Below are positions 16,752-45,753 of a stretch of DNA of 64,000 nucleotides, one piece after another. A program made the position numbers and the translations under genes. The stretch is from Paraprevotella xylaniphila YIT 11841 (lineage in GTDB: Bacteria; Bacteroidota; Bacteroidia; Bacteroidales; Bacteroidaceae). How positions within the stretch are numbered: the stretch's first letter is position 1; each line of letters opens with the position of its first letter. Below the pieces are notes generated by a model, which was not told the origin of the DNA, did not search any database, and saw nothing but the letters and a program-made list of their open reading frames with translations. The stretch covers positions 1 through 64,000 of the forward strand of contig NZ_GL883831.1 of the NCBI RefSeq assembly GCF_000205165.1, in the 5' to 3' direction.

Positions 16752-16849
16752 CTCACAACCTTACGGTTCTAATGGAATAAAATGTAAAAAACAAGGAAGA
16801 TATAATATTTTCCACATTAATACTGGTTTTCAATTACTTATATCAGAAG

Positions 16850-16935
16850 AATCGTTCTGCGCCAAATAAAAAATCATTTGGCGCAGAACGATTTTCCGTT
16901 GTGCTGAGAACGATTTTCAAATCTCAGCACAACGG
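16850..16935. repeat. Palindromic repeat locus A (two hairpins built from a dispersed 22-nt unit)
   Basis: Two inverted repeats stand side by side between the convergent GH9 and GH2 genes. The first has perfect 18-bp arms (16850-16867 and 16876-16893) around an 8-base loop; its core is ATTTGGCGCAGAACGATT. The second has 14-bp arms (16896-16909 and 16922-16935) with core CCGTTGTGCTGAGA. The same cores recur near 31032-31097 and 45674-45753. The hairpins may terminate both genes, but long T-runs are absent. Confidence 0.8.
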
Positions 16936-16987
16936 TTTCAGGCTTTCTGCCGTAAACAACATTTACCAACCGGAAGCCTCATCCCAT

Positions 16988-30079: not shown

Positions 30080-30134
30080 TATAAACCGTTGTGCCCGGAC
30101 TCCCCTGTAGGAAATCCGGGCACAACGGTTTATA
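30080..30134. terminator. Perfect 20-bp inverted repeat between convergent genes
   Basis: Arms 30080-30099 and 30115-30134 pair perfectly around a 15-base loop. The arm contains CCGTTGTGC, also found in the second hairpin of locus A at 16896. It lies between the stop codons of two convergent genes and likely ends both transcripts, though it lacks a T-run. Confidence 0.7.
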
Positions 30135-30801: not shown

Positions 30802-30910
30802 GTATAAAAAAAGTAAAAAATGAGGTTTCCTCCACAGAAAATAATGAGACGGTCAATGCCTCCGGAAGAAATAAAAAACACCCGTCACCCCCATACAGAA
30901 GTTTTCCGAA

Positions 30911-31203
30911 AAACATCCTTCATCTTTCAGGTTGCACGATAAACTACTTATAATTAACAGATTATAACCTGAAGGATGTTTCAGGCATCTTTCAGCCATG
31001 GCTCATTTCAACCGGCTCAAATTGACGAACCGTTTGGCGCAGAACGAAAAATCGCTTGGCTTAGATTGAAAAATCATTTGGCGCAGATCTTTTTATCGGT
31101 TTCAGCCATGAAAGAAGACTGAAAGATGCCTGAAACATCCTTCATCCTGTAAAGCATTGTATGACAACACATTTCCTCATAACCTGAAAGATGAAGGATG
31201 TTT
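30911..31203. repeat. Nested inverted-repeat element (locus B) between hydF and xpt
   Basis: Outer arms 30911-30933 and 31181-31203 are perfect 23-bp inverted repeats; inside them 30970-30995 and 31119-31144 are perfect 26-bp arms. The four arms are variants of one sequence around GATGAAGGATGTTTCAGG, in orientation minus, plus, minus, plus. The centre holds three tandem 22-nt units (31032-31097, core TTTGGCGCAGA) and a degenerate fourth (31010-31031), flanked by an 11-base direct repeat TTTCAGCCATG at 30990 and 31100. No convincing open frame is present. The whole lies downstream of hydF and upstream of the xpt promoter. Confidence 0.85.
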
Positions 31204-31238
31204 CCTGGAAAGACCTTGGGAAAGAAATCCCCATCCTC

Positions 31239-45673: not shown

Positions 45674-45753
45674 TTTGGCGCAGATTGAAAAATCATTCGG
45701 CTGAGATTGATTTTTCAATCTGCGCCAAACGATTTCCGGTTCTCAGCCGAATG
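45674..45753. repeat. Palindromic repeat locus C with interlocking arms
   Basis: A perfect 22-bp inverted repeat (45674-45695 with 45708-45729) contains the unit core TTTGGCGCAGATTG. A second 13-bp inverted repeat (45694-45706 with 45741-45753, core CATTCGGCTGAGA) has its left arm inside the loop of the first, so the order of arms is 1-2-1-2. Two direct 22-nt units (from 45673) are followed by two inverted ones. It lies between two convergent genes and shares units with loci A and B. Confidence 0.8.

Follow-up and report, generated by a model that had tools for sequence, protein, structure and literature searches.

BOX elements of Streptococcus pneumoniae are intergenic repeats that form a hairpin and are built of modules in the order A - B(n) - C, the number of middle modules being variable (PMC3049150). 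That paper describes them as over-represented between convergent genes and counts 17 lone modules beside 125 elements; target site duplications (TSDs) are known for them. It also describes SPRITE, terminator-like small repeats near gene 3' ends that each consist of a single short hairpin. In the Bacteroidales, the BrickBuilt MITE of Porphyromonas gingivalis is intergenic, has inverted, IS5-like ends (GAGACCTTTGCA) and carries 23-nt units (AGAYCATARTATCCTCTCRTRTG) between a leader and a tail described as non-repetitive; 19 copies are given for ATCC 33277, and the number of units at one locus varies between strains (PMC4596501). MITE464/PgRS of the same species is described as tandem 41-nt units in a MITE-like element with repetitive flanks (PMC4596501).

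We analyzed a window of 64,000 nt from Paraprevotella xylaniphila YIT 11841 (contig NZ_GL883831.1 of GCF_000205165.1, positions 1 to 64,000), in which a nest of inverted repeats lies between hydF and xpt. This element resembles BOX in its modular order, variable middle number, hairpin and intergenic location; BrickBuilt in its units set between inverted ends, intergenic location, varying unit number, copy number and Bacteroidales host; MITE464/PgRS in having tandem units in a MITE-like element with repetitive flanks; and SPRITE in its location near gene 3' ends. By analogy, it appears to work like BOX and BrickBuilt, in which a pair of outer modules encloses an array of variable size. The likeness to BOX is architectural only: the host is different and the sequence apparently so, the outer modules here are inverted homologues, the middle units form many free arrays that lack outer modules, over-representation between convergent genes is true of these free arrays only, and we have seen no TSD. 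The element does not belong to BrickBuilt, because the unit (22 nt and different in sequence, compared by eye with the printed letters) and the ends (CTACACAGGA-TTTT-CAAAAA here, also by eye) both differ. Its units are also ordered, non-identical and found free, and its outer parts, unlike the BrickBuilt leader and tail, are inverted homologues. MITE464/PgRS is set apart, by its description, through its 41-nt units and other ends, and SPRITE has no unit array. We conclude that the nest is probably one copy of a lineage-restricted, noncoding, nonautonomous, compound fold-back (MITE-like) dispersed repeat.

The sequence-only reading had placed the nest at 30911-31203. The repeat nest is there, but these limits were too narrow, and the 293 bases are the core of an element of about 343 bp: aligned copies place the whole compound fold-back element at about 30886-31228 on the plus strand (ends approximate; 21 to 22 copies aligned, ends compared in 31). 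It sits between the 3' end of hydF, which has HydF domains, and the start of a gene called xpt, whose phosphoribosyltransferase match lies narrowly below the Pfam cutoff (26.2 versus 26.3 bits). The perfect 23-bp and 26-bp arms, the units at 22-nt spacing and the 11-base direct repeat were all recovered as first described. The outer arm pair is 31 nt long (30903-30933/31181-31211, 90% complementary) and includes the perfect 23 bp (30911-30933/31181-31203); the inner pair is 37 nt long (30970-31006/31108-31144, 86% complementary) and includes the perfect 26 bp (30970-30995/31119-31144). Three central units, spaced 22 and 22 nt, start at 31014, and the direct repeat TTTCAGCCATG is found at 30990 and 31100. 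Read from the sequence and the copy alignment, the array begins with a degenerate 22-nt unit (31010-31031, plus strand); unit analysis then gives two full units, each a 14-nt core plus the linker GAAAAATC, and a third core (31032-31089, plus strand). Flanking the array are two half-elements of about 125 nt each; by our reading of the alignments, the right half, together with its loops, is homologous to the left one in inverted orientation. The region is protein-less, as had been noted: a home-made gene caller predicts no gene, and only mechanical open reading frames reach in. In silico folding, which had been suggested as a check, gave −113.5 and −132.3 kcal/mol for the two strands (z −10.5 and −11.6), far below dinucleotide shuffles, none of 100 of which folded as low on either strand.

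A mobile-type element had been expected to have further copies of the arms in the same genome. We found additional copies: in the organism's own genome, where 40 of the 133 candidates were scored, a 331-bp query gave at least 60 matches with E ≤ 0.001, the first 11 spanning much of the element and many others only the units. Because more copies exist there, the absence of a second copy, which was to have counted against mobility, does not apply. Together with the fold scores, the matches confirm the nest as real and beyond chance. In this genome, we counted 41 occurrences of the end motif YTTCATCYTTCAG and none of its reversed control. Defined by an outer motif pair, full elements are present at 18 of 18 own-genome loci examined and at 27 of 29 loci of Paraprevotella clara (G013); the loci without the pair, L168 and L228, are 2 of the 47 examined. 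Two loci of the own genome (L136 and L139) hold minimal hairpins of about 60 to 105 nt that have the end motif and lack units; the compound element may have been built from such hairpins. Some unit arrays (L108, L110, L121, L190 and L195) and end-motif matches (L137 and L140) adjoin a second repeat, inverted GGTGAA/TTCACC stretches common to several loci.

The lengths of 43 of 45 elements fall within 2 nt of 279+22n, the exceptions being 276 and 308. Across columns 25-322 of the alignment of 21 copies, 1153 of 6211 cells (about a fifth) differ from the majority, and the only gaps are a 22-nt unit missing from two copies and a single nucleotide, column 247, missing from three related ones; column 24 has a one-base gap that splits the copies into two groups. 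Thus, substitutions are tolerated and small indels hardly at all, and the 22-bp units are gained or lost whole. The near lack of small indels exceeds what is expected of a dead repeat, which suggests selection or steady exchange and counts against the dispersed-repeat reading that we favor. We also asked whether the inner block is an insertion bordered by the direct repeat, as had been proposed, and it is not: its position is constant in 22 aligned copies, of which 1, the window copy, has the same 11-mer on the left and on the right. Because the block is fixed and the 11-mers agree in that copy alone, TTTCAGCCATG belongs to the element itself and does not represent a target duplication. By eye, no TSD was seen across the 31 copies compared, whose ends are approximate.

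We then considered copies in other genomes, using a set of 61 that comprised the own genome (G000), 17 congeners and 43 genomes from other genera. Element matches occurred in five, all Paraprevotella: G000, G001, G002, G013 and G015. Those in G001 and G002 are near the element end only, and those in G015 are in units only. The search of other genomes turned up arms or units in Paraprevotella relatives and no element copies in the 43 genomes from other genera. Viral contigs, plasmids and phages gave no matches with the queries used. The unit pattern AATCRTTTGGCGCAGA occurs 47 times in G000, 37 times in G013 and 11 times in G015 and is absent from the remaining 15 of 18 Paraprevotella genomes; the reversed control gave 0 in all. 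In the GTDB collection, from which the own genome was possibly left out, a 30-base unit pattern matched 20 stretches, 19 from P. clara and 1 from a Paraprevotella MAG.

A rival reading, for which the conserved length also speaks, is that the copies are a functional structured RNA family, transcribed with the upstream gene as 3' RNA structures. The outer arms form helix P1 (30909-30931 with 31183-31205, plus strand; alignment columns 25-47 and 299-321), which is paired in 92.1% of cells. In the left half, 30969-30995 (plus strand, columns 85-111) forms a local hairpin, P2, with 94.4% of cells paired, and in the window copy this strand also makes the 26-bp inner arm; its inner-arm partner in the right half, 31119-31145 (plus strand, columns 235-261), forms local hairpin P3, with 85.2% paired. 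As a long-range inner helix, P2-P3 is perfect in the window copy and paired in 77.3% of cells across the alignment. Overall, 91.1% of cells are paired, versus 41.6 to 53.5% for slid partners; shuffles averaged 89.7%, with 1 of 500 reaching the observed value, and 7 of 500 exceeded the covariation score. Of the full elements in tandem contexts, 9 of 11 (G000) and 8 of 9 (G013) lie closer to the stop of the upstream gene, which also speaks for this reading. However, pairs with double changes number 6, versus 6.3 in shuffles (363 of 500 as high). Selection on the RNA fold is therefore weakly supported despite the pairing and covariation scores; the pairing is kept mainly since the arms hardly vary. 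An Rfam search of the window region likewise gave nothing over the gathering score (best 33.7 bits versus 80.7 required, a microRNA family), presence is patchy within the genus, and several copies at matching sites have diverged more than their flanks. We consider an RNA function of this kind improbable. Beside the region, on the minus strand at 30081-30133, there are sub-threshold Rfam microRNA-family matches that are most likely chance hairpins.

The 22-nt units also occur free of the arms, at dozens of other intergenic sites that mostly lie behind genes. Each is the 8-nt linker GAAAAATC plus a 14-nt core, and cores are found in either orientation. In the fetched loci, 93 of 93 unit clusters (53 in G000 and 40 in G013) lie outside genes predicted with a home-made hexamer caller. 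Two free arrays are in the same window, both between convergent genes and without assigned strand, at 16849-16937 and at 45674-45753, the latter with core order A B A' B'. In this order, also seen at L125, complementary pairs interleave as in a pseudoknot. With background gene pairs taken from the same fetched loci and the window, arrays flanked by genes were enriched between convergent genes in both species (14 of 34 versus 13 of 103 pairs in G000, p=0.0008; 8 of 23 versus 4 of 49 in G013, p=0.014), and of the tandem-context arrays, 13 of 15 and 10 of 10, respectively, were closer to the upstream stop. This placement, and a stem followed by a T-run at the element ends, is what would be seen if the repeats were SPRITE-like transcription terminators or 3' mRNA stabilizers that the host had multiplied, their mobility being of no importance. 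However, full elements show no such enrichment, with 1 of 13 in G000 and 0 of 12 in G013 between convergent genes, and insertion tolerance, as discussed for S. pneumoniae repeats (PMC3049150), also predicts placement behind genes. A terminator-like scan at the window site found 2 candidates versus 0.9 expected, just one of them within the element. Although 38 of 61 free arrays fold below z −2, 23 do not, which speaks against one universal terminator hairpin. Thus, we regard this explanation, too, as unlikely.

Short palindromic units that lie behind genes or where convergent genes meet would also suit REP/BIME-type repeats moved by a RAYT transposase. We found Y1_Tnp (PF01797) in only one of the 18 congeners, G010, a genome without units, and in none of the unit-bearing genomes G000, G013 and G015. 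Because the RAYT is missing, the units do not qualify as a REP-RAYT system, and we give such an origin almost no credence.

Within arrays, the order of units speaks against a slippage minisatellite. Adjacent units of the same type and direction were rarer than in within-array shuffles (3 of 95 versus 7.6 in G000, p=0.008; 1 of 66 versus 3.7 in G013, p=0.043), which argues against simple slippage. Identical direct core pairs numbered 0 versus 2.0 expected in G000 and 1 versus 1.7 in G013. Exact inverted-complementary cores numbered 10 versus 2.1 expected in G000 (0 of 2000 shuffles) and, as 14-mers, 4 versus 1.4 in G013 (p=0.043), where the excess is weak (p=0.30 with one mismatch allowed). For the central 10 nt, the counts were 23 versus 15.3 in G000 (p=0.018) and 6 versus 8.1 in G013 (p=0.85). 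By our own count, a type A core stands at the array end in 26 of 35 arrays (G000) and 22 of 26 (G013), and the order D C B A is complete in 3 of 35 and 2 of 26; these counts have no control, some of the arrays are at matching sites, and the arrays were found via the A core. Loci were chosen by a match to the element or the A core, so frequencies of unit types are biased. From the constant linker, the distinct cores in either orientation, the unlike neighbors and the matching inverted partners, one may tentatively picture the 22-bp linker-core arrays as genome-wide modular sites that change by module exchange and inverted, hairpin-templated copying, not by slippage and without RAYT, one array having been caught between two fold-back arms to give the compound element. 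We rate this picture as doubtful.

To follow the history of the dispersed repeat, we compared sites with P. clara. At 9 of 18 own-genome sites, a full element is present at the matching place (L085, L086, L088, L089, L091, L094, L096, L097 and L098; L089 rests on flanks with 71 to 76% identity). Flank matches at L084, L087, L090 and L100 are not decisive. The matching site of L093, the one unoccupied matching site examined, is itself rearranged. The suggested comparison of empty sites thus gave occupied sites and no clean empty one. As half of the sites are common to both species, recent movement is not demonstrated.

Between hydF and xpt, the P. clara genome carries a unit array but no arms. 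A search there for decayed arms gave a weak left-end match (p 0.009) and a right arm at p 0.20 by simple block shuffles, and we do not rely on it. In six further congeners with hydF and xpt together (L146 to L151), neither arms nor a unit array were seen in the junctions, which are a short gap in two and about 640 to 750 bp with other reading frames in four. The latter (L147 to L150) hold two small reading frames, possibly a toxin-antitoxin-like pair, given that one of the L147 products has a RelE match narrowly below the cutoff (24.9 versus 27 bits).

Three own-genome sites (L092, L095 and L099) have their copies directly behind a multi-copy gene, as do L166 to L168 in P. clara. The gene at L166 has AAA-ATPase_like and PDDEXK_9 domains (Pfam), and the own-genome copies are at contig ends. 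With flanks alike at these three and three copies, duplication of genes with their 3' flank could account for their spread. However, the other sites had no mutually common flanks in the comparisons made; the process is insufficient for most sites examined, and as the cause of dispersal it is very unlikely.

A one-unit difference is seen at 2 of the 9 sites occupied in both species: L208 and L225 each lack one 22-nt unit relative to L086 and L085, respectively. Divergence between matching copies is patchy; L086/L208 are identical over a long stretch on the right, beyond which they diverge, and L088/L187 show the reverse. A tree built from 45 copies joins six matching-site pairs as sisters. It places the window copy with L098 from the same genome (98/91), even though P. 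clara holds a copy at the site matching L098, a pattern that exchange between copies would give. The pair L097/L194 entered the tree with one copy reversed, at 0.516 identity instead of 0.86; we ignored its placement, and the mean pair identity of 0.65 among tree copies is somewhat low for the same reason.

We therefore return to the compound fold-back repeat. Many copies, none in a predicted gene, conserved ends and the 279+22n ladder support the MITE-like reading, as do unit differences at matching sites of the two species and the patchy divergence of matching copies. As in a MITE, the element is short, noncoding, intergenic and present in many copies, and terminal inverted repeats are present, both ends having a common motif and the outer TTTT-CAAAAA segment. 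The inverted ends would be recognized in trans by the transposase of another element, which we did not find; by our reading of the motif list, the own draft genome contains no inverted end-motif pair 0.8 to 3 kb apart. Much of the spread probably predates the split from P. clara, since which copies may have exchanged sequence by gene conversion and whole units may have been gained or lost by recombination. Of the sequence-only reading, which had offered a fold-back mobile element or a structured RNA, the dispersed fold-back element fits, and the inner-block insertion and, with covariation weak, the structured RNA are not borne out; mobility we infer, the comparisons having yielded no clean empty site, TSD or transposase. 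In G002, six near-identical copies of a related end (C4, C9, C11, C16, C24 and C26) run into contig ends, which points to a larger collapsed repeat inside; we looked there for an autonomous partner, and the interior is absent from the assembly.

Among the open-license PMC papers listed for Paraprevotella, no title or abstract opening describes such a repeat, and no title among the matches listed for the 11-letter core concerns one. The finding adds a modular fold-back repeat family to the gut genus Paraprevotella. For the host, these repeats most likely amount to passive hairpins that are tolerated behind genes and that may serve as transcript ends. Sister species with and without arrays would let one test action at transcript ends against mere tolerance behind genes, and a full element in one species versus a bare array in the other makes the same test possible. 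The arrays also offer a chance to learn by what routes, other than slippage, a repeat made of unlike units can change.
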